Translations under genes and position numbers: made by a program | Notes under the pieces: model-generated | What the model was told of the DNA's origin: nothing | The model's database searches: none | The model's input: the letters and a program-made list of their open reading frames with translations, nothing else | Assembly (NCBI GenBank): GCA_964017235.1 | Contig: OZ024934.1 | Span: 90,114,706 to 90,178,705, forward strand | Direction of reading: 5' to 3' | Length of the DNA stretch: 64,000 nt | DNA from: Sabellastarte sp. h YS-2021 | Taxonomy: Eukaryota > Annelida > Polychaeta > Sabellida > Sabellidae | In this document: positions 3,526-33,400 of the stretch, one piece after another | Position numbering within the stretch: position 1 is the stretch's first letter | Layout: every line of letters starts with the position of its first letter

Positions 3526-3986
3526 GGGTTCAAGGTTGTGGAAAGGACTGGCTGAAGACATAAGGAGTGTTGCTAGTTAAAAAATAGAAAAAAAAATTAT
3601 TTAAAGAACCAATGATAAATTAATCTGAGAAATATTATCATGGGTAAACTTGCTGAGCACTAATAACATAAGTGAGTTGATTTTTACGTTGATGCTGATG
3701 TCTGTTTATCAAGCACCCAAAAACCAAGCAACAGTAGTTAGTAAAGAAGGCTACCTCACTGGACCCATCTAGTCGTCCAGATGCAATAGCTTTGGTTGTC
3801 CTGTACAGGAGTTCAACACAATGGTGGCCTCTGAAAGCCAGAGAGAGTTAAGATATTATGTTGTATTTTACCTATCCTGCCTCATCAAAGTTCTTGTAAC
3901 CTAGTGGAATGGTTATAGCATAGATTTGGTTCTGATCTGGTTTTGAGGACATGGCAGCATAGTGGTGAACATGTTCAATCTATTAT
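3526..3986 (+). other. no feature seen
   Basis: Short stretch between the SINE and the Harbinger element, without a convincing exon, repeat or RNA gene. Confidence 0.4.
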
Positions 3987-4381
3987 GCCCCTGTTCCACC
4001 AAAGGACTAAGGGCCGATCCTGTCGGTGACCCTTAATCGTGGACAGTCGGTGAAGAAAATGATAAAATGGGCGGGAATACTGAATCGGTATCAAAGCCTG
4101 GGATTAAGTACAGATCGGCCTCAGGAAGCCTGAGGAGGCCCCAGGCGGCCCCAGACAGTCCCTGACTGGTCTGGGACTAAGAACCGATTAAGCCAGTTTT
4201 CTGGTTGGTTTCAACCATGATCCTGTCATACACATACTGACTGGGTCCCAGGAGGCCTCAGGCCTCCTGGGACTAAGCCCCGACTAACCCCCAATTAAGT
4301 CCCGACGTCCTCAGGCCTCCTCAGTCTTCCGCAGACCAATGTGGCCGATTCTTGTTTTGCAGAAAAGCTGGATTTTCTGGG

Positions 4382-4396
4382 TATATATATATAAAT
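4382..4396 (+). promoter_or_regulatory. TATA box of the Harbinger transposase gene
   Basis: A TATATATATATAAAT run lies about 43-57 nt before the transposase ATG at 4439. The partner gene at 16441 has a TATATAAG in a comparable place after a similar leader, so this is likely the core promoter of the element. Confidence 0.5.
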
Positions 4397-4438: not shown

Positions 4439-5676
4439 ATGCCACCTTTTAATGGAAGACAGCTTCAGCAACAACTTAGGGCTTTTTTAGTTTTTATTCA
4501 GTTACAAATAATGATGTGTTTGCTATTTCTACGTCGACCACAGCAACCACCACAAGCACCTCCACCACCACCACCAGCCATACAGAGACCTAGAAGAAGG
4601 CACAACATGTGGGTCAGGCCATGGCTACTACAGAGAGAGGAGAGGGGGGCCTACCACAACATTATGGCTGAACTGTATGCCACAGACATTCCAGGATTCA
4701 CCAATTACATGAGGATGACCCCAGAATTCTTTGAAATGATAAAGACCAGACTGGAACCACGTCTAGCCAGGCAGGCCACCAACTACAGAGCTCCAATCAG
4801 TGTTGGGAAGAAGTTAGCCTGCACCATCAGATATCTGGCCACTGGAGAGTCATACACATCATTATCCTGTCAGTTCAGGGTTGGCAGATCCACCATTTCC
4901 AAGTTTCTATCAGAGGTCTGCAAGGCCATCCAGGATGAGTTCACCAAAGAGTACCTCAGATGTCCTACTACTCCAGATGAGTGGAAAGAACTGGAAAGGG
5001 AATTCAGGATCAGGTGGAATATTCCACGTGCCCTGGGTGCCCTTGATGGCAAGCATGTGGCCCTGAAGAAACCCAAGAACTCTGGAACTCTGGAGATGCT
5101 GGTACAGCTGGATCTTGCTCAGATGCCCAGATATTTAATGCCTGTCAGCTGAAGAGGAGGATTGAGGATGGCAGGATAGGCTTCCCTGACCCAGCTCCTA
5201 TAACCCAGGGTGGTAGAGATGCCCCCTACTTCATTCTGGCAGATGATGCCTTTGCCCTCAAGACCTGGCTCATGAAACCCTATGGCAGAAGGATGTTAAC
5301 CAGAGAGGAAAGGATTGCCAACTACAGAATATCAAGGGGCAGGAGAGTTGTTGAGAATGCTTTTGGCATCCTGGTCTCAAGATTCAGAGTGATGTTGACT
5401 ACTATTGAATTACCCACAAAAACAGTCAGGGATGTGGTCATGACCTGTGTGGTTCTGCACAACATACTGAGAAGCCAGTATCAAGGTCAACATGGTGGTC
5501 AAGAGCCTGGAGATAATGAAGATGATGATGTGTCTGGTGATTGTCGACTGATTGGTGGTGCTGCTGGTGGTGGTCCAGACTGAAACCCTGCTAGAGAAGC
5601 CAAAAGACAGAGGGATTACCTCAAGGACTGCTTCAATAATGAGGGAGCAGTGGCCTGGCAAGATGGCAGAATATAA
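4439..5676 (+). pseudogene. PIF/Harbinger DDE transposase, broken
   Basis: The ATG at 4439 opens a proline-rich N-terminus, then a helix-turn-helix-like region (SLSCQFRVGRSTISKFL) and the first catalytic Asp in GALDGKH. After NSGTL (about 5095) a stretch of core sequence is missing and the frame changes. It resumes in another frame with SDAQIFNACQLKRR, then ILADDAFAL, the conserved Arg-rich segment, and the catalytic Glu in RRVVENAFGIL. The missing stretch covers the usual block around the second Asp. A TGA at 5581 interrupts the tail, after which the same frame continues NPAREAKRQRDYL to EGAVAWQDGRI and TAA at 5674-5676, a C-terminus typical of the family. So there are two lesions: an internal deletion with frameshift, and one nonsense codon. 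The product would cut and paste the element in the nucleus with its SANT partner; this copy cannot. Confidence 0.85.
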
Positions 5677-5693: not shown

Positions 5694-5709
5694 AGTCCTT
5701 TTCAGGACT
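5694..5709 (+). terminator. histone-type 3' stem-loop 1 of the transposase gene
   Basis: AGTCCT-TTTC-AGGACT forms a perfect six-pair stem with a four-base loop, 18 nt after the transposase stop. Size, loop and position match the metazoan histone mRNA stem-loop bound by SLBP. The first pair is A-T instead of the consensus G-C. Confidence 0.6.
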
Positions 5710-5716
5710 AATAACC

Positions 5717-5732
5717 AGTCCTTTTCAGGACT
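5717..5732 (+). terminator. histone-type 3' stem-loop 2 with downstream element
   Basis: This second copy of AGTCCT-TTTC-AGGACT is preceded by AACC and followed by ACCAAAT, like the flanks of histone stem-loops. The 20 nt at 5734-5753, containing CCAAAAACAA, are identical to 17672-17691 after the stem-loop of the partner gene and occupy the place of a histone downstream element, the U7 snRNA target. Confidence 0.6.
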
Positions 5733-5794
5733 ACCAAATATTCCAAAAACAATCAGCTATGCTTGTTCCAAATAACCCAAACATTACCAAACAT

Positions 5795-6262
5795 AAGTCA
5801 CGCCACCAACAAACAGACAAACCCAATGCCCGACAGAAGTCACGCAACCAACAAACAGACAAACCCAATGCCCAACATAATTCACCCACCCAACAAACAG
5901 ACAAACCCAATGCCCGACAGAAGTCACACAACCAACAAACAGACAAACCCAATGCCCAACATAATTCACCCACCCAACAAACAGACAAACCCAATGCCCA
6001 ACATAATTCACCCACCCAACAAACAGACAAACCCAATGCCCGACAGAAGTCACGCAACCAACAAACAGACAAACCCAATGCCCAACATAATTCACCCACC
6101 CAACAAACAGACAAACCCAATGCCTGACAGAAGTCACGCAACCAACAAACAGACAAACCCAATGCCCAACATAAGTCACCCACCCAACAAACAGACAGAA
6201 ATAAATGCCTTACAGAAGTCACCCAACTAACAAACAGAGAAACCCAGTGCTAAACATAATTC
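5795..6262 (+). repeat. 42-bp tandem repeat array, about eleven units
   Basis: The unit CAACAAACAGACAAACCC plus a variable half has a period of 42 bp (14 codons). Two variants occur, one with CCCGACAGAAGTCACGC and one with CCCAACATAATTCACCC, mostly alternating. The last two units are diverged. Because the period is a multiple of three and the unit lacks stops, several frames on both strands stay open; none has other support as a gene. The array starts right after the shared post-stem-loop block of the Harbinger copy. Confidence 0.9.
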
Positions 6263-6629
6263 TCAAAAGAAACACACAAAGCCAAATATAACTTCCTAAA
6301 TGGAATAAATATTGCCTATATTTTGAAAGCTACATCCTAATTTTACTTACATTTGGTTTTTCTATGGGAAAAATATTTGAAACAGAAATGTTTTCCTGGA
6401 AATCTTAAAATTAAAATATTTTACTCCACTTCACAAATATTTAGGAAATATAACCACCAAACTGGTTTTCTTTACAATGATGGGGTGTTAAGTTTGCAAA
6501 ATAGTTTGTTTCAATTGGACCACTTCGTCCTCCATGTGATTATGTTGGTCAGACATGGGTGTCTGAACTGTCAGTGGCGAAGGCAAAAAAATTTTCTTGT
6601 TCATTGTAACCCCTTGTAAATAGGGAGGT
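6263..6629 (+). other. no feature seen
   Basis: AT-rich sequence between the tandem array and the DIRS-like element. One 88-residue open frame is present but has no recognisable domain. Confidence 0.4.
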
Positions 6630-7046: not shown

Positions 7047-8004
7047 ATGCCAAAGACATTTGACTGCAACGCCTGTGGGGACAGGCACCAGAGACCTATC
7101 AATAGTAAATGTACACGAGTTATTGACAGTGAACCAGAGGATGGCATTAGTATTACAATCTGACATTAACCTTCAAATATTAAGCGAATTGAAGAGCTTG
7201 AGTGGTCGGATGCAGGCCATGGAGGAAAGAGTGGACAAGGTGGAGAAGCCAGGCAATCAAGCAGCTTCCAGGCCAGCAGAATCCACAGCAACAGCGTCAA
7301 ACACAGCGTCAAGCACAGTGTCAGACAGTGTCATCCCATCTATGGACTTCCTGAGAGCGTCAGACAATATTCAGGCCAGAGTGGACGACAGGATCAAGGA
7401 ACTTCAAGCCATGCACCCACAAGGCAAGTTCAAATCCCAAAGGGGTGGTTCTGATACTTATTGGTGTAAAAAGGAAGTTCCCTGGCCTCAAAATCATATA
7501 TTAAGTGGTGCTAGCAAGTCCAGGGTTTCTTATGACAGTTTGTCGATGGCCCAATGGGTCGCTGGTTTTTGTACAATTATAAAAGATGAGGGTAATGTTC
7601 AAACCAAAAATAACATGTTAAGTTATGTAGCTGACCTCATGGAGGACTGCCACGACTTTGGGTGGCAGTCAGCCAAGGGGGCTCACGCAGTAGTCTTGTG
7701 CCACATGGAGGAAAACAAAGTTAATTGGGAGGAAACCAATAGACTGGACCGTCTAAGACGGGTACATGCCCAGAAAACTCACAATTCAAGTGTATCATTG
7801 GGCCGAAAGTTTAAATCCAAAGAAAAGGGCATCCCATGTCGATTTTTCCAAAAGGGCACTTGTGGGCAAAAAACTGAACATGAAAATGGGGGTCAGCTGT
7901 ATCTCCACGTGTGTGAGCATTGTTTTGTAAAAGGAAAGTCTCATCCCCACCCAGGTAAAGAATGTAGACAAAACCATCAAAAAACGAGTAGGGCACTGCA
8001 TTAA
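7047..8004 (+). pseudogene. gag-like protein of DIRS-like element 1, frameshifted
   Basis: The ATG at 7047 starts MPKTFDCNACGDRHQRP, a C-x2-C-x3-H-x7-C motif repeated in element 3. A frameshift near 7120-7150 moves to the frame that continues with a coiled-coil-like stretch (SELKSLSGRMQAMEERVDKV), then the conserved block FKSQRGGSDTYWCKKEVPWP. Near the C-terminus is a second Cys/His cluster, CRFFQKGTCGQ, then HVCEHCFVKGK and a final Cys. The same cluster occurs in elements 2 and 3. It probably coats the element RNA. The open frame continues to the stop at 8002-8004. Confidence 0.7.
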
Positions 8005-8664
8005 TGCAGTGCCAGCCAAATGCAAGTAAAAAGTATTTCAGTACTCGAACTGTAGTAAATAGTAAAAAATGCTTTGTACAAAGTAGGGACTGGAAGCAAG
8101 ATTGGTGGTTTTGTAATAATGTGTCGTATGCTGATGTTGTGAAAAACAAATGTAAAAGTGTCAGTAGAGTTCAAGTGCAAAGTATTGATGGCCATGACGT
8201 GCAAGGTGTTGAAAAACACAGAAACACACGCACAAAAGGTGAGTGTATTGCTGATAAAAACATTGAAGGTTATTACAGTAAAAACATCACACCAACATGT
8301 GGCCACAATGCATCAAAAAGGTCATTAGCAAATGCAAATACTAATATTGCTGCTGACACAAAAACAAAGGACACAAATAGCCAGTGTCCTCGTGCAAAAA
8401 TCACTAAAAAAACCACAAATAACAAATATTCAATACCCAGACATCAAGAATGGTCAAAGGTGCGAATCTGAATACAATAGCCATATAATTAATGATGGTT
8501 TTGTACAGAGGTGCGAATTGGCAGACAATGGTCAAAGTCGCACTTCAAAACATGACAATAGAACCCGAAGTCGATGCAATTACACAACAAGTGTTAAAAA
8601 TAGATTTTGGCCTTTGTGCACTGAATAGAATGTTAAACACAGTTCACATGGTCACGAAGACTTA
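8005..8664 (+). other. low-complexity linker between gag and RT of DIRS-like element 1
   Basis: This stretch encodes K/N/T/S-rich sequence in changing frames with several stops. It may be the decayed, poorly conserved N-terminal part of the polymerase protein. The equivalent region in element 2 (18583-19086) is similarly rich in Asn, Thr and Asp. No domain is recognised. Confidence 0.45.
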
Positions 8665-10116
8665 GTGGGTGCGTGTGTCAATGACAGTAAAAGTAACAAA
8701 AAGGTGTCAAGTCGTGTCAGTAGTAAAAGTAAATGTCACTCACCAAGTGTGAATAGCTGTACAGCAAGTCCAAATCAAGTTAATCATCAGGACACAGTTG
8801 TATCCCCTGAAAACACAGTAACAGTGAGTGCAAATAAAAGTTATCTACTTGATGATCACAGTTCGGATCCGGACAAATATGCAATGGATCTTAGGTTTCG
8901 TCCTCAGCATAGACTTAGAATCCAAGAAGCCAAAAATTGTCAGGTTTTCAAACTTTGGGACAAGCAGATGTCTGATAAGTTTGGTTACATCCCTCTACAA
9001 GAGCAGATCATACCAAGTAGGGATCAAAGAAATACCAGTGTGACCAATGTCTTAAAAATGCATGATATTATTAGTGAATCTAACACTTACAACTTCTTGC
9101 AATGTCAGATACAGGTTCCTTCACAGCTAAATACTGATGTTTGGGAAAATTATCTGGGCGATTATTGGGACACCCAGTTAAAATATCTTATACGATATCG
9201 GTTTCCACTTGACTTTAATAGAAATGTCAAATTGTCTCATAAATTAGGTAATCATGGATCAGGAAATAAATATCCTACAGATATTGAAGCGTACCTAGCA
9301 GAAGAAATCGAACACAATGCCATCTTAGGTCCCTTTGATACTCCTCCAATAACAGACCTGCATGCATCCCCATTCCTGACTCGAGAAAAGCCAGGAGCCC
9401 CTCATCGCAGGGTCATAATAGACCTTAGCTTTCCTGCTGGCGAGTCTGTTAATGCTGGGGTTGACCCTGACCAGTACCTGGGTTCGAAATTCTTGCTCAC
9501 TCTCCCCACTATAGATACTATCGCCAGTAAATTAGTCAAATTAGGCAAGGGAGCCTTACTTTATAAAATTGATATATCTAGAGCATTTAGGCATGTTAAA
9601 ATAGACCCTGCTGACTATAAATATTTAGGTCTCCACTTTCAAAGCTACTTCCTTGATAGTTGCCTACCCTTCGGCTTTCGGCACGGTTCGGCCATCTTCC
9701 AATGCCTCAGTGACGCCGTCAGGCATATCATGTATACCAAAGGTCACAGTGTGACAAATTATATTGACGATATAGTCGGATATGCAGTTAAATCCAAGGC
9801 TCAGACCTCTTTTGATACAATGTTTAGCCTTCTTCAGGAATTAGGCTTCAAAATTAGTGAAAATAAGTTGGTCAGACCAACCACCAAAGCCATTTGCCTA
9901 GGCGTCGAATTAGACACTGAAAATTTACATGAAAAGTTACATGATATTCGGGCAGAATGTAACCAGTGGCTCAATAAAACCACTTGTACAAAATGCCAGC
10001 TTCAGTCACTACTGGGTAAACTCCTCTATGTTACAAAATGTGTTCGAGCCTCAAGATCTTTCTTAAACAGAATGCTAGATACCTTAAGGGCACTAAGCAA
10101 GATACCATTGTCATAG
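8665..10116 (+). pseudogene. reverse transcriptase of DIRS-like element 1
   Basis: This is the longest open frame of the element. After a non-conserved N-terminus comes GDYWDTQLKYLIRYRFPLDF, which is shared by all copies, then SPFLTREKPG and VIIDLSFP, the LPTIDTI block, KIDISRAFRHVKIDP, LPFGFRHGSAIFQ, and the catalytic YIDDIVGYAV box near 9760. The thumb follows (KISENKLV, LGVELD). The frame ends with a premature stop at 10116, while homologous sequence continues in another frame into RNase H, so a one-base lesion lies at about 10095-10105. No ATG fits the start of the open frame; the protein was probably made by fusion or frameshift from upstream. Confidence 0.85.
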
Positions 10117-10661
10117 ATTGTGAATTTAGAAGAGATATAAATTGGTTCATTAAGTTCTTGCCAGACTTCAATGGTATAACCTTCTTCAGTCATAAACCCA
10201 TATATACACATGTTGAGCTAGATGCTTCGCTCCAGGGTTTAGGGTTTATGTGTGGTCAAGAAATCTATGGCATTGCACTTCCAAAAGGCTACCAAAACTA
10301 TAACATTGTACACCTGGAAATGGTGAATATCCTAGTGGCGGTTCGAACATGGGCTCATCGGTGGCAAGGTAGAAAAGTGGTCATCCACTGTGACAACCAG
10401 GCTGTGGTCTCGGTTGTGAATTCAGGACACACTAGAGATATGACCCTTGCAGCTATGGCGCGTAATATCAACATGACCATTGCTTTCAAGGATATAGAAC
10501 TTATGACAGTCCACATTGAAGGTAAACGAAATGTCGTAGCTGATGCTCTGTCCAGACTATCCTTAAATCCGGCCCTCTTGCAAAAAATTCCAGAACTGGT
10601 CCCTGGGCATACATGGATCACTCCCAAAGCCAATGCATTGACAGTAGATTGGTCTATTTAA
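10100..10661 (+). pseudogene. RNase H domain of DIRS-like element 1
   Basis: In the frame after the RT lesion, four acidic catalytic positions are visible in order: the Asp in HVELDASLQGLG, the Glu in VHLEMVNILVAV, the Asp in VIHCDNQAVVS and the Asp in NVVADALSRL. This is the RNase H layout of RT proteins. The frame stops at 10661 and overlaps the start of the recombinase by about 50 nt. Confidence 0.8.
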
Positions 10662-11643
10662 TTGCAGGTTCCAATCCCCATTTGACACTATTATACCACA
10701 AGGCAGCTCGTAGGATGCAACAGGCGTTTGCAGAATCCACTAGAAGGTCGTATGCAGCAATGTTCAGAATGTTTCTGGCTTTCTTGGTTTTCCTTAACAT
10801 TCAACCAACCCTCATCTCCTCCACCCATGTTCTGGCCTTTTTAGAGTTTCTAGTTTTTAATAAAGTATCTCACTCACAGATTGCTAACTACTTATCGGCC
10901 ATCAAAACAAAATATGCAATGTTAGCCCTAAACACAACACCTTTCTTTGACCAGAGAATCAAATATTTTACTAAGGCTGTAGCTAGGTGTGCACCCCTCA
11001 CGGTTAAACTAAAAGCTATCATAGAACCTCCCTTATTGGGACAAATGATCCACCAGTGTCAATTCTTTCATATGGGATTTGTGTTCAAAGCTGCAATATT
11101 GCTTGCCTACTTTGCCTTCCTTAGAATTTCAAACCTAGTTCCTCACACCATTTCTTCTTATAATCCCCTTAAGCAGCTAGCCAGAGCTGATGTATTTTTT
11201 TCTCATCCTGGGGCCCATATCTTGCTAAAATGGTCAAAAACCATGCAAATGAATAATTCAGTCAGGGTCATAAAGATTCCGGCCCTTGGGGCCTCCCCCT
11301 ATGCCCTGTCTCCGCCCTTCAGGAACTTTTGGCCAACTCTCCTGATCAACCAAACAGCCCTCTTTTTCAGATCAAGTGCTACCAAAAATGGGTTCCACTC
11401 ACAGATACTAGACTGAGAAAAATATTTGCTTCAATTCTTGGCAGGCTTCACCTTCAGTCAAACATCACCTTCCACTCTCTTCGACATTCAGGTGCCACCC
11501 TGGCGTTTAATTCCAGTGTTCCTATTCAAGACATCCAGTCCCATGGCACCTGGACGTCGGAGTGCGTCTGGTCCTATATTACCCAAGACCACCAAGCCTC
11601 AGAAAAAGTGGCCTTAGCTTTCCAACAACTACTCCAACCCTAG
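10613..11643 (+). pseudogene. tyrosine recombinase of DIRS-like element 1, one frameshift
   Basis: The N-terminal SAM-like core-binding domain (RRSYAAMFRMFLAFL, SHSQIANYLSAIKTKY) is followed by the catalytic domain. Arg I is in LAYFAFLRISNLVP, the box II His and Arg in FHSLRHSGATLAF, the third His in QSHGTWTSE, and the nucleophile Tyr in VWSYI. A one-base indel near 11298 shifts the frame; the 3' part continues from ANSPDQ to the stop at 11641-11643. The enzyme would insert circular cDNA at a target without making a staggered cut. With the indel repaired the catalytic set is complete. Confidence 0.85.
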
Positions 11644-14528: not shown

Positions 14529-14531
14529 TTA

Positions 14532-15250
14532 TGCCCTTGTTCCACCAAAGGATTAAGCCCCGATCCTGTCGGCGACCCTTAATCGTGGGTAGTCTTGGAA
14601 AAAATGGAAAAAAAATTGACCAATGGGGTGGAAGACAGAATCGGTATGAAGGTCTGGGATTAACTACAGATCGGCCTCAGGACGCCCCAGGAGGCCCCAG
14701 ACAGTCCCTAACTGGTCTGGGACTAAGAACCGACTAAGCCATTTTTGTGGTCGGTTTGAACCACGATCCTGTCGTAGACAAACCGACTGGGTCCCAGGAC
14801 GCCTCAGGCCTCCTGGGACTAAGAGCCGACTAACCCAGGATTAAGTCCCGACCCCACAAGGTGTCCTGAGGCGTCCCCAGGCGTCCCCAGACCGAGATAG
14901 CCGATTTTTGTTTTGCAATGGGACTAAGGGTCGCAGGAGGCCTGGGACTAAGAATAGAGGGTCTGGGACTAAGGGTCGGCGACTAAGGGTCGCAGGCGGC
15001 CTGGGACCACATAGGACTGTGTAAATTTGATCTGAGGAGGCCTGAGGACGCCTGGGACTGGACATTTTGTTTATGGCGGGAAAAAATAATCGGTTGGGGT
15101 CGTGTGAAATATCAAACATGTTTGATTTCTCACACGGCCCCAACCGACCACAACCGACCCTTACAGAAGGTCTGGGACTAAGCAAATATTTCAAACCGAC
15201 CCTCAAAAACCCTTAATCGGGAGCCTTAGTCGTGTGGTGGAACACCCACA
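14532..15250. mobile_element. non-autonomous Harbinger derivative (about 719 bp)
   Basis: The left end, TGCCCTTGTTCCACC, and about 390 bp of leader match the transposase copy at 3987. The right end is the reverse complement of the leader at 15612 (GTGTTCCACCACACGACTAA). TTA precedes and TAA follows. It is therefore the two ends of one element joined by loss of both genes. GGGACTAAG and GGCCT motifs recur at least eight times, likely subterminal transposase-binding repeats. Confidence 0.8.
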
Positions 15251-15253
15251 TAA

Positions 15254-15608
15254 GCAAATGCTAACTCTCTGAGAATATCACATATATTCAATCATGCATA
15301 CCTGTCATTGAGGCTAAAGCCTCTCAAAGGTTCATTTCGTGGGCAATCATTGTCCCGGAAAACAATCCTTGACTGTTTAAAAGAAATGTCTTTATTTTTA
15401 TAATAAATGGTACAATTATGTAAGGTTTGCACATAACGTTTTTCATTGATGTAACTTTTAACAAATTGAATAGATCATTTCACCACAAGTACATGTAGTT
15501 GAAAGAACATGTAAACTAGTTGGTGAAGATTCTGCATTGACAGCCATCAAGCACCAGCAAGGAACTATCAATTTTCCAACTACATGTATGGCAAAGAATA
15601 AAAAATAA
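15254..15608 (-). repeat. SINE body remnant between two Harbinger copies
   Basis: At 15510-15590 the minus strand reads TAGTTGGAAAATTGATAGTT, then CCTTGCTGGTGCTTGATGGC, matching the body of the tRNA-derived SINE. The head is not recognisable. Nothing else was seen in this interval. Confidence 0.4.
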
Positions 15609-16217
15609 TTATGTGGGTGTTCCACCACACGACTAAGCTCCCCGATTAAGGGTTTTTGGGAGTCGGTTTAAAATATTTGCTTAATCCCAGACGTCCTGTA
15701 AGGGTCGGTAGTTGTCGGTTGTGGCCGTGAGAGAAATCAAACATGTTTGATATTTCTCAAGACTCAAACCAATTTTCATTTCCCGTCGTCAACAAAATGT
15801 CCAGTCCCAGGCTTCCTCAGGCCTCCGCAGACCCAAATTTACACAGTCCTATGTTGTCCCAGGCGTCCTGCGACCTCTGTAGCTTAGTCCCAGGAGGCCT
15901 GTTTGGCAGTCCCCGACTCATAACAGATCTTTGAAGTTTCATGCGTGTGAAAGGGAATCAGTTTCATTAGTCCCGGGAAGCCTCAGACCATCTCAGGTGT
16001 CCTGGGACTAAGAAATCTGGGTCTGGGACTAAGCCCCGACTAAGAGAAGCCGACCCTAACCGATCCAAGCCGGCGTCCTCAGGCTGCCTGGGACAACGCA
16101 AATTTAGTCTGCGACGGTCTGAAGATGCCCCAGGAGGCCTGGGACTAAGAACCAATTACGAGCCGACTGTTTTCCGCGCGTCGGAAATTAAAACGAAGCA
16201 ACGAGGGGGTCTGGGAC

Positions 16218-16225
16218 TATATAAG
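16218..16225 (+). promoter_or_regulatory. TATA box of the Harbinger accessory gene
   Basis: TATATAAG follows the last GGGACT motif of the leader and precedes the first in-frame ATG (16441) by about 215 nt. The spacing leaves room for a 5' UTR, possibly with a short intron. Confidence 0.45.
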
Positions 16226-16440
16226 CAACCACGCACACATTCTCGTTGTTACTGACTGGTTGGCTACTGAGAGATGTGTGTCTCTGTTTTGTAGGGGTTT
16301 TCAGTTTTTTAAATATCATATAATACTTGAGCTTAAGGCAAATTTTACAGTTAGGAGACACATTTTAGTTTTTTACTTTTTTTTTGCTATTGACTGGAGT
16401 TTTGAGGAAAGAGAAAGGAGGGAAGAGAGGAAAGAAGAAG

Positions 16441-17295
16441 ATGGATGAGAGGCAAGAGGAGAGGGAGAAGGAAAGTGGAGAGGTGGAGGAAAAGATGGAG
16501 GAAAGGATGGAGGAGGGTACAGAGGAGGGTACACAAGAGACTGAAGAGCGATTGGAACTTACTGAGGAAGCTTGCAAAGAAGAAGAGAGGTGTGAGGAGG
16601 ATTCAGAGAGTCACTCGGCAGACAAGAGAGCCAGGGTCTGTTCAACTTTCACTGACAGCCAAGAAACTGCAATTGTGGAGTTTGTGAAGGAGCATCCAGA
16701 GCTCTACAACAAGGAGCATGCACGTTTCCACGACAGACAGAAGAAGGAGGCTCTCTGGGCAGAAATCTCTGCAGAACTGAAGCTCCAGCCCTTTGATGTC
16801 AGAAGATGGTTCAAATCCCAGCGAACGCGTTATGGCAAGCTGTCAAAACTATAATCTGGCCAAACCCCAAGGGAGATGACCAAGAGACAGTCCTGGGTCT
16901 ACCAGCAGATGGGTTTCCTTAAGATCCACATCAGACAAAAGGGGGCCAGCAGAAGTTCAGGGTTCGAGGCCAGTCCAAACACCAGCAAGCAGGATGAATC
17001 TAGTGGATCTACTACTGATACAGAACACCTTGAGTCCAGTGTCCTCAGGGAGAGTAGGAGTCAACCTAAGTTCACATCTACACCAGTTTCAATAGACTCC
17101 AAGATACTCGAGCACTTTGACCAGATGAGGACATTGATCTCAGGTTTCCTGCAGCGGAAGTCAGACAGGCAGCCCTTCTTTGACTACATGGCATCAGAGG
17201 CTGAAAAGATGACCCAAGAGGAATTTGAGGACCTCAAGGGCAGAATTTTAGAGATATTGAAAGCATTAAGTGCAACTGTAGACATCAACCACTAG
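16441..17295 (+). pseudogene. Harbinger accessory protein with SANT/MADF-like domain, one stop
   Basis: The ATG at 16441 starts a strongly acidic and basic E/K-rich region (about residues 1-65). A trihelix SANT/MADF-type domain follows: VEFVKEHPELYNKEH, WAEISAEL, VRRWFKSQRTRYGKL. A TAA at 16852-16854 interrupts the domain, but the same frame continues with MTKRQSWVYQQMGFLKIHI and on to a C-terminal helical segment (QPFFDYMASEAEKM). In Harbinger elements this partner helps the transposase reach the nucleus and bind the termini. Beyond 17295 a Gln/Pro-rich tail with stops (17400-17640) may be the decayed original C-terminus. Only one clear nonsense codon lies in the main frame. Confidence 0.75.
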
Positions 17296-17653
17296 CCAGA
17301 AGATCAGCCACTATTACCACGGAGTCCCAGAGGGTCGGGATACTGCCAACAACCACTCAACAGGCGTCTACTTCCACCTAAGCAGCAGCTAGCAGCAGTT
17401 ACGTCTACTACACACCAAGCCCACTTGGCTTTGGCAACCCTCCATCAGTTCTAACAGTACAGGATGAGGGCAGTAGACACAACTTAAGTGGAATACTAAG
17501 CCAGCTACCAGATCTGACATCTACACAGATCATTGAGCAACCTCAGCAGCAGTAGCAGCAGCCGCAACTCTTCACTATTACCACTATAGCACCGCCTCAA
17601 CAGCAGCAGCCTCCTCAGTAGCCATCCAGTCAGGGCGGGTCTTTGACCTGCCA

Positions 17654-17669
17654 GGCCCTTTTCAGGGCC
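17654..17669 (+). terminator. histone-type 3' stem-loop of the accessory gene
   Basis: GGCCCT-TTTC-AGGGCC followed by ACCCA fits the metazoan histone mRNA stem-loop consensus (GGYYYT, four-base loop, ARRRCC, ACCCA). Relative to the transposase stem-loops, two pairs are changed in a compensated way (A-T to G-C and T-A to C-G). The downstream 20 nt at 17672-17691 are identical to those after the transposase stem-loop. Confidence 0.7.
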
Positions 17670-17772
17670 ACCCAAATATTCCAAAAACAATTATTCAGCT
17701 GCAAGTTATTCCAATTCCCCTCCCAAAACATAACAACATTCTGCCAAACAGAAAAAGATAAGTAGTCTTTCT

Positions 17773-18520
17773 TTGGCTAGTAAATCATCACCTGTACAAG
17801 AAAGTGACTCATCTTCTGATGAATCTCTGGTGTCTAGTTTGAGTATGTTAAAATCAAGTAAGGACATTAAACAACAAGTGGATTCAAGGTTACATGAGCT
17901 GGAAGAATGTTCTGGGGTACAGAGTAATCAAAAGCAAAAGTTAAAGTCAAAAAGAGGGGGCAACGTGGAAAGTATTGTCAGTAAGAAAGTTGCTTGGCCC
18001 CATGATTCCATTCCAGGTGGTACTAGCAAAGGTTGTTGTATGACCAGCTTACATGGTCACAATGGGTTCAGGGCTTTGCCAGAAACATTTTGGGTGAAAA
18101 ATCTAAAAAAATCTAGGGAAACAATGCTCACCTATCTTTTTGATTTAATATAAGATACTACTGATTTCAGCTGGCAGGGGGCCAAGGCCTCACAAGCCAT
18201 TTTATTATGTGAAATGGAAAGGGGGCTGTAACCTGCGATGATATTGGTCGAATTGACCGAATAAGAAGATCTCATGCTCAGAAACATGTTACAAATTCAC
18301 GATTTTTTAGTAGAAATAATGATTCTGGCAACAAGCGTCCTTGGTTTTGCAGGTTTTTTCAGTCAGGTTCATGCAGTTTTAGTAAAGATCATGAGACCAA
18401 TGGGAAACTTCATAGACATATATGTGCTCGTTGCTTAGAAAAGGGTAAGCAACTCAATGATGTGGAGAAAGATTGTGGATCAGGAAAAAAGGGTTCAAAA
18501 ACGAGTAAGGGGCTGCACTG
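17773..18520 (+). pseudogene. gag-like protein of DIRS-like element 2, broken
   Basis: The frame from 17773 has a Ser-rich start, IKQQVDSRLHELEE, then the conserved block LKSKRGG and VSKKVAWPHDSIPGGTSK. It stops at 18153. Further 3', at 18336-18480, the Cys/His cluster seen in copies 1 and 3 returns: FCRFFQSGSCSF, HETNGKLHRHICARCLEKGK and a final Cys. Frameshifts lie between the two parts. Confidence 0.65.
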
Positions 18521-18582
18521 AGAATGCATTGCTTAGTGGCAGCTTTAAATCTCATGATCTTTCTACTTGAACGCAGAAAAGT

Positions 18583-19086
18583 ATGAAAAATACTGCAGAT
18601 ACTGCTACTGGGTTCAAATCTTTAGAAGTTGAAGAATTGTTAAATATGAAAAAGCAAAAAGTAATGGTCCTTTTCCAGGATAGAAACAGGTTTTCTACTG
18701 AGACTGCTGTAACTGGCAGTTTTGCCCAAGATGGTGGAACTCACTCAAACAGGTATGTTAGTACTGCACTTTGTGATGGTAGGGCATATGCTGAAGTGGC
18801 CAAGGGCTGTGCCTCTACAAAGGGGACTTACTTGTTTGACACACGTGCTTCACCTCGCTGTGGTAGTAATATTGATAAATATATCAAACCCAATACTGTT
18901 GTGTGCACTGAAAATACTGCATGCGAGAATAGTGATAATGTTGTGTGTGATAAAACTTGTTTCATTGCAGGGGATAGTGATAAAATCAAGATCTTTGATA
19001 TCAATGGACTTGACGATAAGTATCTTAGTTCTATTTTGATAAACTCGTGTCATGATGTTAATTCAGTCCCTGCTTGTAACAAGTAA
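18583..19086 (+). pseudogene. linker ORF of DIRS-like element 2
   Basis: A 167-codon open frame rich in Asn, Asp, Ser and Thr occupies the position of 8005-8664 in copy 1. No domain is recognised. It likely belongs to the variable region ahead of the RT. Confidence 0.4.
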
Positions 19087-19289
19087 ACACACAAACTTTG
19101 GAAGCACTAAACTGATTTTAACTTTGGTTTTATTCCCTTGGGTGAATTTCGTTTTTCAGATTGCACTGAGGTTAACTATTTGGCTGAATATTGTCCCATT
19201 ATTGCTCATAACACCGTTAAACAGTTAAAAAAAACCTAATTACTTGGGTGCAAGACTAAAAGTCGATTCACAGTTGAACTTAGATGAAT

Positions 19290-21122
19290 AGAAAAAAGAA
19301 TTAGTCGGATATTGGGACACTCAGCTGATTGGTTTGTTGCAATTTGGCTTTCCTTTAGATTTTAATAGGAATTTACCTCTAAAATGGGAAGGTTCGAATC
19401 ATAAGTCTGCAACTATTGTTGGCCCCTTTGATCAACATCCGTGTCTTGGAGGTCACATTTCACCTTTTCTGACTAGAGAAAAACCTAATTCTGAGAATCG
19501 CAGAGTAATTGTTGACCTTAGTTGGCCACTTGATCACTCTATAAATGCAGGAATTGATAAAGCTTCATATGTGGGTATTGATTTTCAACTCAAACTGCCC
19601 CCCAGATAGCATTCCTCTGTCAGACCGACATTGGCTTTTGGTTGCATGGTCGGCAGATTTTGCCAACATTGGGCCAATGTTGGCCCAATGTCAGCAGTTT
19701 TTGCCACTGTTGGGCCAATGTTGGCCCAATGGTGGCTTGCCAAGCACTACTTAGGTTAGATATTGCTATATTTTGCCAACGTGGGGCCAATGTTGGATTT
19801 TTATTCAAGTTGGCGGCGAGCAATAATAGGGGATTTTGGGAAACTTAGTAAAAAATTATTTATTATAGTATGTGTAAAAATCTTATTTCAGTGAGCCCAC
19901 AAATTGAAACTAGCCATTTAACAATTTTGGACATAAAATAATATTCTCATTATAAATTCACAGTAAAAAGTTGTTTGTGAACATTACAATTTTATCACTG
20001 GATCACTTATGACACTGTTTCACTATATTGTTGATGTTTGGTCCTGTGACTTATCAGGGATTCCCTTAACTAAGATCTTCCCGCAATCTGTCAATCACTT
20101 GCCTTCTGTTAAACAATGACCACATAACACCAAGCTGCAATCTGATTGGCTGATGCTATACAATGAGTAGAAGTTTTACCAGTGACTTGCTGACATTGAG
20201 CAAACGTCTCCTCCGCCGGCCAAAAAGCCATTTGGCCAATGTTGGCTGCCAACGTCGGACCGACAGATGTGCCAACATTCAGCCAACGTTGGTCCAACGT
20301 CAGAATGCTATCTGGGGACCACTATTGATCATATTACTGATCAGTTAAAAGCTTTAGGCAGAGGTTGTCATTTGTACAAAATAGATATCTCAAGAGCATT
20401 TAGGCATATCAAAGTAGATCCATTAGATTATGACATTTTGGGTCTCTCCTGGCATCACGTCTGCGTTGATACCTGTGTTGCTTTTGGGACAAAACATGCT
20501 TCCCAAATTTTTCAGCGTTGCAGTGACACTGTGCATTATATTATGCGTCAAAATGGCCACAGGATAGTGGGATACATTGATGATTATGTCGGGTTTAGCG
20601 TCCCGTCTGAAGCAAGTGCTTCTTTTTAAATTCTTATATGATTTACTTGGTCCCCTAGGTCTTACTATAAGCAGCAATAAACTAATTCCTCCTAGCACTA
20701 AGGATACTTGCCTAGGTATTGAAGTTGATACTGTGGCTGGATCCGTCTCCATCCCTGAAGAAAAATTGCAAAAAATGAGTGAACTTGTACATGAATGGGT
20801 TGGGAAACAACACTTTACAAAAAGACAACTTCAATCCCTTTTAGCTTACATTTTGTACATACATAAATGTGTAAAACCCACTATGATATTCCTAAATCAC
20901 ATGTTGCAAGTGTTAAGAAATGCTCATAACAGTAGTCGCAATGCGCTGGATCACAACTTTTACAGGGGCCTTAGGTGGTTCCAGACCTTTCTAAAAAAAT
21001 CAATGGCATTGCCTTTTATGACCACAAACCAGATGCATCTAGATGCTTATTTGCAAGGGTTGGGAGGTGTACTTAACAACATGGTTTATCATCTGCCCAT
21101 CCCTTTGAGGTATCAAAATTAA
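19290..21122 (+). pseudogene. reverse transcriptase of DIRS-like element 2, interrupted
   Basis: The N-terminal part at 19290-19599 has LVGYWDTQLI, FGFPLDFNRN, SPFLTREKP and VIVDLSWP. After the MITE, the frame resumes at 20318 with KIDISRAFRHIKVDPLDYD, FGTKHASQIFQ and the YIDDYVGF box near 20570. A frameshift near 20610 leads to the thumb frame (LTISSNKLIPP, LGIEVDTV) ending at 21122. RNase H fragments follow in pieces: LDAYLQGLG, LEMINILVAV and an ADLLSR box, with several stops to about 21420. Confidence 0.8.
19600..20317. mobile_element. MITE inserted in the RT of DIRS-like element 2
   Basis: The termini are perfect 15-bp inverted repeats: CCCCAGATAGCATTC at 19600-19614 and its complement at 20303-20317. 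Both arms are packed with GGCCAATGTTGG and GCCAACGTTGG motifs in both orientations. The flanking RT reads LKL before and TIDHI after, so the insertion is precisely within the LPTID block. There is no ORF. The superfamily is not certain. Confidence 0.85.
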
Positions 21123-21480
21123 GATATCATGCACTTAGAAATGATCAACATATTGGTTGCTGTAAAATTATTTGGAGTCCACTGGAAAAACAAGTGAGTA
21201 AAGATCTTTGTGATAATATGGCAGTTATGTGTGTACTGTAGTCAGGCAAGACCAGAGACCCCTATATGGCTGCCTATGCCAGAAATATCTGGCTGTGATC
21301 TGCAAGTTATGATATTGAGTTTGAGTTTGTACATATTAGTGACAAAACTAATGTAATAGCTGATTTGTTGTCTAGGTGGGACCAGTCTGACAAAGTAACA
21401 AAATTGTATGATCTGGTTCCTCATGCTGTTGGTATAATGTGTTGCTAGGTCACATTGACCTTAATAATGATATGTAACTG

Positions 21481-22430
21481 ATGCTATACTTTGTTGTAGG
21501 TCACCCCAGATTTAAGGGTCTGACAGAGAAAGCTTTATCAAGATTGAATTCTGCCTTCAGACCAAGCACTCAGGTTGCCTACTCCTCAATGTTCAGGGTC
21601 TTCGTGGCGTTCTGTTGTCACATGGGTATTTTGATGTCAAACGTAAATGTCAATGTTGTGTTGGACTTTTAGAATGTTTAAATGTAAATGGTGTTTCTGC
21701 TAACATGTTTAGCAATCGTGTGTCTGCTATAAAAGCCATATTTGTAATTTTTGGCCTTCCCATGAAGTGTTTAGAAAGTAAAAGGATCCATTATTATGTC
21801 AAGTCACTCAAAATCAACCGACAACTTAGCATCACTAGGTGCAACATTGTTAGTATTGAAGATTTATATTCCCTGGTTACCTACTGTGATCAATTATACA
21901 TGGGCCAAGTTTTCAAGGCCTATTTGTTATGGCTTTCTTGTGGTTATTTCAACTCTCAAACCTGTGCCCTTTATTCGTTTGACACTTTTGACTTTACCAG
22001 GCATTTTATCTGCAGGTGGTATATTTTTCCAATGTAACATGCTCAAAGTCCTTTTAAAATGGTCAAAAACTATTCAGTAACGTGATAAAATAAAAATTAT
22101 TTCATTGCCTGGTCCTGGGAGAGCAAAAATCTGTCATATTAGAGCAATAAGAAAGCTTTTCACTGTGTACTTTCCCATCAAAAATCAACCATTGTTTCAG
22201 TACAAATATCCTTCAGGATGGAAGGTCCTCATTGACTCTAAAGCCAGGAAAACTTTGACTTATCTTAATATCAAACTAGGCTATCCAACCCATTATTTTA
22301 CGTTTCATTAATTTTGAAGAGCTGGTGCTTCATTGGCTTTTGCCATTCATGTCCCTCTTCAACAAATAAAGTTTCAAGGTGCTTGGTCTTCAGACTGTGT
22401 CTGGTTCTTACATACATTCAAATCCAGATA
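21481..22430 (+). pseudogene. tyrosine recombinase of DIRS-like element 2, degenerate
   Basis: The core-binding domain is readable (STQVAYSSMFRVFVAF, then SNRVSAIKAIF). The catalytic part is eroded: the box II region reads FTFH, then a stop, and RAGASLAFAIHVPL only after a frame change; the usual HGTW has become QGAW. No catalytic activity is possible. Confidence 0.65.
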
Positions 22431-27400: not shown

Positions 27401-30400
27401 GATGGTGGAACTTTTGAAACAGATGAAAACCTATTCTTTGACAATGGTACCATAACTGCTATACACATCAGAGCTGGTGCCTTACATCGACTGGTGAGTG
27501 AATTATCTACAGCATGATAACTTTTATATATACAGAGTCAGCTAACTCCAAATTTTTGTGATCATTTTTATGCCACAAGAGAGTTTCTTTATCCACCACT
27601 TTGCTTCAATGATAAGTACAGTTAGTGCATATTTTCAAAAAGGCAACAAAAATTATCATAATCATGTCCATAGTTACAGGTACTAGCTAAAATAACAATT
27701 ATTTAGGCGAGAGCTCACAATTCTCGAGATTACCTTATTTTTCTTTTTTTATTTTTAAATTTTGTCACTGGACTTTCATGAATTGTGGCATATCGTGATG
27801 AGTAGCCATCTCATCACTGAAGTTTAGTAGTGATCGGCAATGTTTTATGTGACTGTAACAATGTATCTGACTTGGACTTGTTTTTGTTGCCATACTTTAA
27901 TCAATTCTAGTGCACTACTTGTGTCTCTGATGGCTTTGCGGATGCCGGAAGTAGACCGAAGCACCGTTTGATCTTGTTTAGCCATTTGTCACATTAAAAT
28001 TTTCTGTTTTTTCTTGCATAGATTATAATTCAACAAAACAACCGCACAAGTCTGTAAAAGTACCTGACGGTGGGAACATCATTTATTGAATCTGCTATCT
28101 GCTGTCTGTATAAATGGCAATCCAATCAAATATCTTGGAGAAAATATCCAACTCGGTCTGATCATACACATCTTTCTCATCGTGTATAAGTGTAGGGAGC
28201 TAACCAACTCGTAATATTTCAGTTCAGATGTTTTTGTTACTTTATTTTCAGCCTTGGCTTCACCTATGGTACACATGTTGGTCCATGTCGAGGGGGGACC
28301 GGTGGAACAGCACACAGCATTTCACTGAACCCTGGTGAATTCATTACACATATCAATGGGACATTGACCCCACACTTTGTGACGTCCATGACCTTGAGCA
28401 GTGTAAGGTTTAGTAGTTTCAAAAAATGTTTTTTTTTATTAATCAATTTTTTTTATTCTGTAAAATTTGTCTCTATATTGTGAGAAATATTGGGAAAAAA
28501 GATTTTTCAAGAACCCTCCATGCCCAGAGATGCAACCTAAGACTACAATGCCCATCAAAACCAAAAGCAAAAACGAATGGATTTTTCTCATTCCACATCA
28601 TGATAATCGCAGATAAACCCCACCAGGTGTGAAACTGTAACTACAATCAGGTAGATTTGGAACTTTGCCTCCAAAAACACAAGTAAACCCAACCTTGTAG
28701 GAAAACATAAGGTCGACCTGATGCAAATGTTTTTAATTATGCTCGTGGACAAACAAACGATAAACAGATGTGATTACAATACCCCCACTCTCCCTTTCAG
28801 GGGTACAGTGGAAAAATATGACACAAAACCTGTGGTGACTGATATGTTGAAAGCTGAGAGATTATTGTTAATGTTCAGAGTTTATTTCTTGCTGAATTGA
28901 GATAAGATTATCTGTACCAATCATAGTTAAAATTGACAACTGTGTGACTCAAAGTTACTGAACAAAAAGTATTATTTTCAGTGTGATGAGCATTGTTTAC
29001 ACTGTGTTACAATGGTTACCATGCCGTCCACTTTGGTAAACATGGGTCTAATATATTTTGGATACATGATTACAATTAGAATCACTGTTCATAAAGTGAA
29101 AGTTTATTAACCATGTGAAAACATCAGTTAGTTTTACAAATTATGGCACGCATGTTGATTGATTTGCAATTACCGATTAGGGCACTCTGGGTTTCGGGGA
29201 GCCCCTAAAGTAATATACCAAATGTGTCTTTACATTTAGTTCACACACACATCCATGTACACCAGACTGCTTATTTGCAAGTCTGATTTGATAGAGTATT
29301 TGTACATAAATAATGGGGTCATCAAACAGAACAATATATAACATATCACACAACTGTCAAACTGGTTGTTTGAGGTGTAAAACTTAAAAGCATTTTAAAA
29401 AGAAAACAGTTATGCATTCCTGGTTTCAATCCAGTGAATTATTCATTACTGATCATAACATATTTTACAGACTTAAACATGATAATCAACAGCCAGAAAA
29501 CTGTAATGTTCCATTCATGGAAAAACTCCCGCTAAATTCCTCAATTTGCTACCTCACATTTTCAGTCATTTTATTATTGTTTGGTTAATCGAAATAAAAT
29601 ACTGGGTGGGATTATACATTTATTTTGAAAATAGTTTAAATGGTTTAATGGTTTAGTATCACTTATTCAGTTATGTGGGATATTATTTAGACATAAAAGC
29701 AAAGTTGATCCCAGATTTATGGCCCATCTTTGCTGAATTCTAAAAGTAACCTGCTCTAGTAAATTATGATTTAACCCATAAACCCAAAAGTAAAATATGC
29801 GGTGACTTGTGTGCATAAATTATGATTCAAGTCAAGAAACAAATGCAAAACCAAAAGTCAGAAATGTTTTGAATTTTTAGTAGAATTTAGTAATCATTAC
29901 CATTAATAAAAAGAAAGCAAAATGGGTAACCATAAAATAAGGGGGAGCCAATGAGCTACCTACATAGGGGTTGAATTTAGAAATTTAAAAGATACAAGAC
30001 CGTAAGCCACAATAAATAATGTTAAGGGGTAAAACAGCAACTTATAGGCATGGAGTTAAATATCATAAAATTTGCTAGTTTTTTCAAATAAAAAACCTGC
30101 GAAGGAAAATCGTCAAGCAGCCAAACTAGGAGCAATAAGCTTCTCCAGATTTATGTCTAGACCTACATCTTGCAAAAGTGTTAATAGAAAGTCGTAAGAC
30201 TGATAAATTTGAGAGGGTAATGCAGTATAAATATCAGGTCGTCAATATATTTCCGCATACCTATGAAAGCATATTGACATATAATATGGCCTATAGCATT
30301 ATTATTATTATTTCTATAGCGTTTTATTATAATTACTCAAAGCGCTTTAACAATGTTATAGAAAACTATTATCATTTTGTAAATAAAATCAACAGTTGTA

Positions 30401-33400
30401 AACTTTTTCAAACAGAAATGTTTTCAATTGCTTTTTGAATTTGTCAACTGAGGTAGCAGTTCTTATGGAATTATCAAGATTGTTCCACAGCACAGGGCCC
30501 ATGTAAGAGAAGGCTTTTTCACTGAATCTGTTAGGGATGATCAGTTGATTAAGTCTATATTCCTTGCTGGATCTAGTATCTCTAGATGACTGATGAATCT
30601 GGAGTAATTCTGAAAGATATTTGGGTGCCTGGGAGTTTAGGCATTTGAAGACATAAGTGAGAATTCTAAAATGAATTCTTTCTTGCACAGGTAGCCAATG
30701 AAGCTGTTGTAAATATGGTTTAGCGCTTTCATATTGAGGAATGTCAAAAATAAACCTGGCAGCAGAATTCTGGAGACGCTGTAGGTGATCAATATTTGCT
30801 TTCTTTGTTCCAAGAAGGAGGCTACAACAATAGTCCAGGCGTGAAATGACTAGAGCCTGTATCAAAGATTTACGTGCCGTAACAGTTAAATATTTATGAA
30901 TTCTGTACAGCTTTCTAAGTTGCCCTTGAATAGCAGCACATTTTTTGTGAACAAATACATCCATTGACATATGTTCATCAAAAAAAGCACCAAGATTGCG
31001 AACCGCTGACACACTTTCAATGTAGCTATCACCAACTGCAATTGTAATTACTTGGTTTTCCTTAATGAAGTAAGGGGAACCCAGAAGCAGCAGTTCTGTT
31101 TTACCATCATTGAGTTTTAGCATGTTATTTCCCATCCAGGTTTTAATTGCAGATAAACAACTATTCAGAGTTGCCAAAGAAGGACTATTGTTAATATCCC
31201 TGGGTGATATTGAGACATACAGTTCTGTATCATCTGCATAGAACATGTTTCCCACATTATGTTGTTGTGTTATATCTGCAATTGGTGACACATACAATGT
31301 GAACAACAGGGGTCCTAGCACTGACCCTTGGGGAACTCTAAAATGAAGTTTCTTCTTAGCAGATGTTGAATTTTCTATTTGAACACACTGGCTTCTGTTT
31401 GATAGATATGATTCAAATCATTTGAGGGAAGTGCCAGTGATACCAAATCTAGCTGACATTCTGCGGAGTAATATATCATGATCAATGGTGTCAAACGCGG
31501 CACTTAAATCCAACAACACCAGTGCCTCAAGATTCTTCTTACCAATAGAGTTGACAAGGTCATTTTGCACTCTGAGTAATGCAGTCTCAGTAGAGTGAAA
31601 ACAGCGATATGCAGATTGCATAGTTGACCAAAGATCATACTTATTCAAATGATTTTTAAGTCTTTCAGCAACAATTTTCTCAAGTAACTTGGATACGAAT
31701 GTTAAGTTACTAACTGGTCTGTAGTTTTTCAGTATATCCTTGTCTAGATTATCTTTCTTTATCAATGGAAGAATGTTAGCATGCTTTAGGTCATCTGGAA
31801 CACAGCCTTTTTCTAGTGATTTATTGATAATCCTAGTAATCAGAGGAGCCAGCATGTCAACATGTTGCTTGACCAAGCATGTTGGTAATGGATCATTCTC
31901 ACAGGTAGCCGTTGAACAATTTAAAACTAGCCTCTTGACTTCATTCTGAGTTGTTGGTGTAAAGCATGACAGTTTGTCAAGATTTGACATAGGAAACAGT
32001 TTTTCTTTTATTTCAGTAACTGCTGAAACAGTGGCTGATTTAGTGATATCTTCACGAATAGTAACTATTTTATTTATAAAATAGTCATTAAAGCTGTTGG
32101 CAATGTTGTCGTCTGAGCCCAAGTTTGGAAGAAAAGATTTTTTAAAATTTGCAGAGTTTTGGCAACACTAAAGAGCTTCTTCTTGTCATTTTCTGATTCG
32201 ATAACTTTAGTTGAAAAGAATGTAAGAATTTCACAATGAGAGCGATATTGGTCCCAGTTCTGTTTGGTTTTACATTTTTTCCATTTCCTTTCAAGTCTTC
32301 TCTTGATCACTTTTAAGTGGCGAATTTGTGAATTGTACCATTGAGTGTTTGGTCTAATAATAATCTTCTTTTGGCTTATAGGAGCATGTTTATCCAATGC
32401 AGTAGTCAGGTTATATGTGTGCAACAGATTATCCAGGTCATCCGTTGGACATGTAACTGATGACAAATCCTCACTCAGTGAGTCATGATCAATGTCCTTT
32501 AATTTCCTACAGTTTACAGTTTTACTAATGGGACTAGGCTTTGGAGCAAAGAGGCGACTGAAAACAGCATGATGATCAGATACACATGGATACCCAGGTA
32601 AGGTGACATAAAAAATGTTGTCATTTTGCCTAGTGATGACCAGATCAATACAATGTCCTCCTGCGTGAGTCGCAAAAGAAACAGTTTGCTGGAGTCCATG
32701 AGCTTGGAGTAAGTCCAGAAACTGTTTGACTTGAGCATTGCTTGAGTCATCACAATGAATGTTGAAGTCCCCAAGTAAAAGTAGGGACTCTGGTAGACAG
32801 GAAAGACTTGCAACATAATCAGAAAACTCAGAGTAGAACTGGCTAAAGGAAAAGTTGTTTTTGCTATTTGGTGGTGGCCCATATATAACACAGAGTCTGA
32901 CAACATTGATTCCCACCTTTAAAACAAATTCTTGATGTTCAAAGTTTGTGAAACATTTTCCTTTTATCTGCTTTAGTTTAATGTTAGATTTTATCACTAC
33001 TCCTGTACCTCCACCTCTGTTGTCACGAGGATTACTGTAGAAGCAATATCCATTTGGAGTAAGAGAATTAATGATATCTCTTTCATCTTGGTTCTCAGAA
33101 AGCCAGGTTTCAGTTACAGCTAAAAAGTCTAATTTATTATCCAATATAAAGTCATGTAGGACCACACTTTTATTTTTTATAGATCTGACATTCAACAAAC
33201 CAAAATTAATCCACTTCCCAGAACTTTTTAGGTTGGCCTCCTCTTGTGTATTGATACAAATAAGGTTTTTTCTACATGCACTATTAACCAAAAGTTTGCT
33301 TTTATTTGGCCTGACAGAATTTTGCTGCGTCTTGTTTTTTTCTTTTCAAGACTGTTCAGTCTAACATTGAATACTGTAGCTGGAGAAAGTTGACTGAGTG

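Follow-up and report, generated by a model that had tools for sequence, protein, structure and literature searches.

The window, by which we mean the whole 64-kb stretch of DNA analysed here, carries histone-type stem-loops and downstream blocks just behind a PIF/Harbinger transposase gene and behind a Myb/SANT-like accessory gene, and ends of the same kind recur behind related genes elsewhere in the genome. Judging from the sequences alone, we consider it probable, at roughly three chances in four, that a clade of two-gene PIF/Harbinger transposons produces intronless mRNAs which use the SLBP/U7-type 3' processing of the host.

Stem-loops and downstream blocks in the window

Direct reading of the + strand of the window located AGTCCTTTTCAGGACT at 5694-5709 and again at 5717-5732. 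These are two stem-loops of the form AGTCCT-TTTC-AGGACT, and the first stem begins after 17 nt from the stop codon TAA (5674-5676) on the transposase side. Behind the accessory gene, GGCCCTTTTCAGGGCCACCCA begins at 17654 and corresponds to GGCCCT-TTTC-AGGGCC-ACCCA, with the stem-loop itself at 17654-17669 (+), 32 nt from the TAG (17619-17621) that is the stop codon of the accessory family. The transposase and accessory stems of the window differ at pairs 1 and 3, and both differences are compensated. The same 20 nt, CCAAATATTCCAAAAACAAT, are found at 5734-5753 and 17672-17691. They belong to blocks resembling the histone downstream element, which extend on the + strand over 5734-5759 behind the transposase, where direct reading and comparison showed a core equal to that of the host histone genes, and over 17672-17703 on the accessory side. 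The initial annotation had described the doubled hairpin shortly after the transposase stop, the two compensated pair differences and the identical 20 nt after both stems, and all three descriptions agree with our reading.

It had also held that the accessory stem-loop fits the metazoan histone consensus, and had proposed a check with the Histone3 covariance model. Rfam Histone3 (RF00032, gathering cut-off 34 bits) matched the accessory stem at 17649-17694 with 35.8 bits and an E value of 1e-6, the sole match at curated cut-offs in the window. The transposase stem reached 27.8 bits at 5712-5756 (E 2.5e-4), a weaker match below the cut-off.

Organization of the window copies and of their intact relatives

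Both genes in the window are broken. The PIF/Harbinger transposase gene (4439-5676, +) matched DDE_Tnp_4 with 40.1 bits on its second piece; about 25 residues are missing, the frame breaks near 5093 and an in-frame TGA lies at 5581-5583. The relative L013 scored 106.1 bits with the same domain. The Myb/SANT-like (MADF) accessory gene (16402-17621, +) showed the domains MADF_DNA_bdg (40.9 bits) and Myb_DNA-bind_5 (23.3 bits) and matched an uninterrupted relative of 402 aa at 84-89%; it has no ATG at the start position of that relative, and its frame is stopped early at 16852-16854 and broken near 17250. By eye, TATA-box-like stretches were seen 5' of both genes, at 4382-4395 and 16218-16224. 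Upstream of the accessory gene there is also a large inverted repeat (15023-15839) with arms of 231 nt that are 87% complementary and separated by 355 nt, and smaller palindromes lie inside it.

Two copies of the terminal inverted repeat TGCCCCTGTTCCACCAAAG, the second with one base changed, follow a TTA triplet on the + strand and begin at 3986 and 14532. Comparison of the repeats placed the left ends, triplet included, at 3983-4008 for the transposase copy and at 14529-14554 for the copy with the accessory gene. The repeat was present in 29 of the 30 loci that best matched the transposase (L009-L038), and in 23 of these 29 it followed TTA or TAA when read by eye; this count refers to left ends only, and the accessory-side end of the copy on C18 was not found. 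The initial annotation had assigned the two genes to one Harbinger transposon. They are Harbinger genes, but they are the halves of two broken copies, and a single element with both genes in the same orientation was discarded because a separate left end is present in each half and the genes of other copies are convergent.

The convergent arrangement was seen in the copy on C18, in which an accessory frame of 402 aa (+) and a transposase frame of 434 aa (-), both uninterrupted, face each other, with a stem after the stop codon of each of the two genes. In locus L019 the stems of the convergent genes are separated by about 0.7 kb. On C1 below 83.1 Mb, the span covered by the first 100 stems, 14 of 17 family transposases were followed, 0.8-1.9 kb downstream, by an exact accessory-type stem on the opposite strand, an arrangement with a chance of about 0.2% per site; eight of these came from the 11 found by the transposase search and six from the six found by the DDE_Tnp_4 search and assigned by score (116-119 bits). 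None of the three transposases of other scores in the same span had such a stem. The frames are uninterrupted, that is, intronless, in intact copies of both genes. A run of 42-bp tandem repeats 3' of the transposase stems of the window (5782-6281, +) corresponds to the region that lies between the convergent genes elsewhere, and its number of units appears by eye to vary among copies.

Distribution in the genome

The accessory-type hairpin followed by ACC, GGCCCTTTTCAGGGCCACC, occurs 1,966 times (1,027 + 939) in the one genome analysed (1.786 Gb) and not once in the reversed control; these are exact pattern matches, counted irrespective of the sequence in front of them. No exact GGCCCTTTTCAGGGCCACC was found in viral contigs. 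At C1:64935297-64942615, six exact accessory-type stem-loops spaced by 1,460 bp represent a part of the transposon in tandem array.

At least 150 copies were scored in the transposase search. Whether other copies of the family lack the paired stems was a point that the initial annotation had raised against its own reading. Among the 30 best loci (L009-L038), one or more intact stems lie 3' of the transposase in 27, which leaves 26 of 29 once the window copy (L009) is set aside and does not refute that reading; no intact stem was found downstream of the transposase in L010, L020 and L022. The C-terminal motif is kept in 27 of the 30 copies, and 26 of those 27 keep the junction between stem and block. 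These 30 copies are close (91-95% in the part searched), and we take them as a sign of spread and not of selection.

The genome search with Histone3 scored 75 of 382,297 candidates, and 28 loci around its matches were examined, in two batches of eight and 20. Four contain histone genes (L007, L039, L049 and L050). Based on tblastn, 20 of the 24 non-histone loci matched the accessory protein of the window; L001, L040, L042 and L046 gave no such match at E 1e-3, and the L001 stem points towards a transposase fragment on the opposite strand. A protein search with the accessory protein returned 788 matches.

Behind 20 DDE_Tnp_4 transposases outside the score range of the family, neither stem nor block was present on the gene strand within about 620 nt downstream of the domain in any of the 20, which were counted as single transposases and not as separate families. 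AATAAA or ATTAAA was found in 15 of these 20 regions, and one of them has an unrelated hairpin on the other strand. Exceptions also exist among the relatives. The transposase of L001, a related family, has no stem and has AATAAA; the transposase stem of L119 is decayed; L115 and L118 showed neither transposase nor stem, and L116 a stem with no recognised transposase. Of the two kinds of stem, the one behind the accessory gene seems to be the more general. The transposase ends of L002-L005 have two stems and no TTCC block, and the accessory-type ends of L041, L046 and L008 have altered blocks. AATAAA follows the stems in L019 and L022, and the host H3 gene has one too.

Covariation of the stems

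Host, accessory-type and transposase stems were aligned (27 sequences, 24 of them distinct; the rows L001, L040, L042 and L046 are labelled Myb though they have no accessory match). Not one of the 144 pair cells departs from standard pairing, which is partly built in because the sequences were chosen for having the stem; the paired differences between families are not. Pairs 1, 3 and 4 vary, with changes on both sides in 13 cells and on a single side in one (U-A to U-G), and at most 61% of cells were paired when the partners were slid. The covariation score of 0.313 was reached by none of 500 shuffles, while the number of both-side pair changes was reached by 105 and the number of further pair types by 489 of the 500. 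Pair 2 never changes: it is G-C in every one of the 24 distinct sequences, AGTCCT included. Its G (G7) is the sole base contacted specifically by SLBP according to the available text of PMC10388802. The ACC flank is present in 23 of the 27 rows, the exceptions being the first transposase stem of the window (w_Tnp1), both transposase stems of L002, and L008.

Transposase identity to the window family or to its C18 relative is about 57-65% for L002-L005 and L119 (longer matches), 51-60% for L117 (in two pieces) and 44-52% for L001, and accessory-protein identity runs from about 30% (L047, L053) up to 97%. Within the family, mismatch in 27 close copies amounted to 0.013 at the coding end, 0.026 immediately ahead of the stems, 0.040 and 0.028 within them, 0.025 in the block and 0.059 in the stretch that follows. 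Conservation within the family was therefore rejected as a proof of selection, the stems being conserved no more strongly than the coding end.

Likeness to the histone 3' ends of the host

Pfam searches identified host H3 and H2B genes in L007, H2A and H4 in L049 and H1 in L039; the Histone match of H4 (22.9 bits) is below the cut-off and this gene was named by reading its sequence. In each of the five genes the stop codon is followed at 31-41 nt by GGCTCTTTTCAGAGCC, then by ACC and then by a TTYCAARAAC block, which reads TTCCAAAAACAATTAAT.AGCT in H1 and H3, TTTCAAAAACAATTATTCAGCT in H4 and TTTCAAGAACTTTTATTT.AGCT in H2A and H2B. These histone 3' ends place the host among the animals. TTCCAAAAAC is common to host H1 and H3 and to both genes of the window, and TTTCAARAAC is found in H2A, H2B and H4. 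Both kinds of host block recur in the elements, as CCAAAAACAATTA and as CCAAGAACTTTTATTTAGC, the latter like that of H2A and H2B. The first kind, as in H1 and H3, is present in most transposon families read; the H2A/H2B-like kind was found behind the L119 transposase and behind the stem of L116. In a comparison of 22 accessory-type ends, the information content was about 1.2 bits per base along the block and 0.14-0.67 in its flanks; the block alone was used here, as the stem columns are fixed by the anchor pattern and hence uninformative. That the elements carry the local dialect of the block and not a hairpin alone is the main reason why we think that the signal works.

The accessory-type stems of L001, L002 and L006 scored 43.6, 43.5 and 43.0 bits with Histone3, at least as high as host H3 (42.9), H1 (41.9) and H2A and H4 (40.7 each), and those of L022 and L019 scored 37.8 and 35.8. 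The transposase stems, in which the first pair is A-U, scored 27.8, 31.0, 31.0 and 28.3 bits, all below 34, and the transposase-side stems of L002, L116 and L119 gave no Histone3 match at E 0.01. At C4:31445721-31509289 there are 32 histone-type stem-loops, mostly spaced by 1,932 bp, and the two units that were read contain H1 genes (L039).

A U7 snRNA gene was also looked for. Rfam RF00066 gave no match in this genome, nor in its own control genomes. The pattern TTTTTGGAA..TTTGTCTAG gave one match, at a site that is not U7-like, against one in the reversed control, and a looser pattern gave 27 + 23 matches against 26 + 37 in the control. None of the 33 sites read among these 50 was acceptable as U7 by eye. 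At the U7-pattern sites L066, L078, L086 and L090, the hairpin behind has about -9 to -11 kcal/mol.

Proposed 3' processing and alternative explanations

In the accessible text of PMC9756948, PMC2642717 and PMC10388802, SLBP is described as binding the histone stem and the U7 snRNP as pairing with the downstream element, with cleavage by CPSF73 between the two; the resulting mRNA has no poly(A) and is tied to S phase. Replication-dependent histone genes have no introns (PMC5636114, in the portion available). On the transposon mRNAs, host SLBP would likewise bind the stem-loop shortly after the stop codon, the host U7 snRNP would pair with the downstream block and CPSF73 would cut between the two, so that these mRNAs would have the stem-loop, and no poly(A), at their 3' end and would accompany the histone mRNAs into S phase. 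We infer the use of this pathway because each RNA element that it needs is present in order in the transposon genes of the window and because the frames are uninterrupted in intact copies. We lean slightly towards the further view that both element mRNAs lack poly(A), are bound by SLBP and are made in S phase, with transposition coupled to host DNA replication. Cut-and-paste elements could gain copies at that time, and the mRNAs would bypass poly(A)-dependent control. Possible gains would be an expression timed to replication, the production of both proteins together, clean ends for convergent genes 0.7 kb apart and less dependence on poly(A).

As AATAAA motifs lie 3' of stems, poly(A) ends may occur as well. 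One alternative contains the preferred reading and extends it: the ends would be cleaved as in histones in dividing cells and polyadenylated at AATAAA elsewhere. Stem, block and AATAAA do coexist, and dual processing is described for H2AC18 (PMC9756948) and for H2A.X (PMC7807067) in what is available of these papers; AATAAA is, however, frequent in AT-rich DNA, and we hold this extended version to be possible but doubtful. The same motifs would also suit an ancestral element that took up a piece of histone 3' UTR, now hitch-hiking passively, with polyadenylation at the downstream AATAAA. The block and the AATTAWT..AGCT that follows it are as in host histones, the L001 transposase does without a stem and close copies reveal no extra constraint on the stems, all of which such a capture would explain. 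Yet the stems differ from the host GGCTCT by paired changes and stay paired across families that are about 57-65% (transposase) and about 30-97% (accessory protein) identical to the window family, both genes have a stem in several families and two block types occur, so we regard passive capture as unlikely.

The paired changes bear also on the idea that the palindromes are DNA sites for the Myb-like protein or the transposase, and not RNA signals. Short palindromes repeated behind genes, one of which encodes a protein with a MADF/Myb domain, would agree with it; but paired swaps keep a helix while altering a DNA site, and a position just after the stop codon, in the orientation of the gene, with the histone loop, the ACC flank and a block of host type is not what DNA sites would call for. 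We consider this very improbable. The initial annotation had judged the pattern hard to obtain by chance. The motif is short and the transposase stem taken alone misses the Rfam cut-off, but an E value of 1e-6, 1,966 occurrences against none of the reversed pattern and retention in 26 of 29 other copies uphold that judgement and make a fortuitous resemblance in the window negligible as an explanation.

Relation to known systems

The ends described here share with the histone 3' end (RF00032/SLBP/U7/CPSF73) the 6-bp stem, the 4-nt loop, the G at the second position, in most cases the ACC flank, a block of the kind found in the host, a stem soon after the stop codon and intronless frames. They differ in the genes concerned, which encode a transposase and a Myb-like protein, and in the stems, which are GGCCCT or AGTCCT in the elements whereas the host histones read have GGCTCT. 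The transposase stems moreover occur as two copies in two families and score below the Rfam cut-off, and the likeness to histone ends is here one of sequence. With PIF/Harbinger elements they share the DDE_Tnp_4 transposase, the Myb/SANT-like partner, the terminal inverted repeat after TTA or TAA and the presence of two genes, and differ from them in the histone-type ends. H2AC18, H2A.X and the bdelloid H2A variants combine a stem-loop and a poly(A) signal in one 3' region, as far as the available text goes (PMC9756948, PMC7807067, PMC2642717); these are histones, unlike the genes of the elements.

According to the accessible parts of PMC6303110 and PMC10388802, no metazoan protein-coding mRNAs other than those of replication-dependent histones carry a 3' stem-loop instead of poly(A); stem-loops in the histone mRNAs of a bivalve are described in that of PMC6210712. 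Searched by term within the text available, a teleost survey (PMC9179366) contained no use of stem-loop, hairpin or polyadenyl and four unrelated uses of histone, a bivalve survey (PMC10294476) none of histone, stem-loop or hairpin, and PMC8905726 none of histone or stem-loop. No report of such transposons was listed in a literature search on the histone stem-loop, SLBP, U7 or the downstream element in connection with transposons, transposases or Harbinger, whose coverage lay largely outside subscription papers and preprints. If our reading is correct, this class of metazoan mRNAs would here have its first members outside the histones, and a high-copy transposon would break the histone-only rule for mRNAs with a 3' stem-loop. 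The elements would then offer a natural set of substrates other than histones in which stems and downstream blocks vary, S-phase timing of DNA transposon activity by an RNA-level device would become testable, and libraries selected for poly(A) could miss such elements.

Other elements in the window

DIRS-like retroelements lie 3' of each of the two Harbinger halves, at 7060-11643 and 17773-22037; both have a reverse transcriptase, and tyrosine-recombinase domains were found in the first. A strong palindrome at 19661-19737, matched below the cut-off by several microRNA families, is probably part of a repeat. On the - strand, a broken non-LTR retrotransposon (30389-33291) has an Exo_endo_phos domain and an RVT_1 match just below the cut-off, and a Penelope-like fragment (37034-38254) has a GIY-YIG domain and a reverse-transcriptase match below the cut-off. 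On the + strand, PAN-domain pieces at 52709-54516 (PAN_1 above and PAN_4 below the cut-off) probably belong to a host gene.
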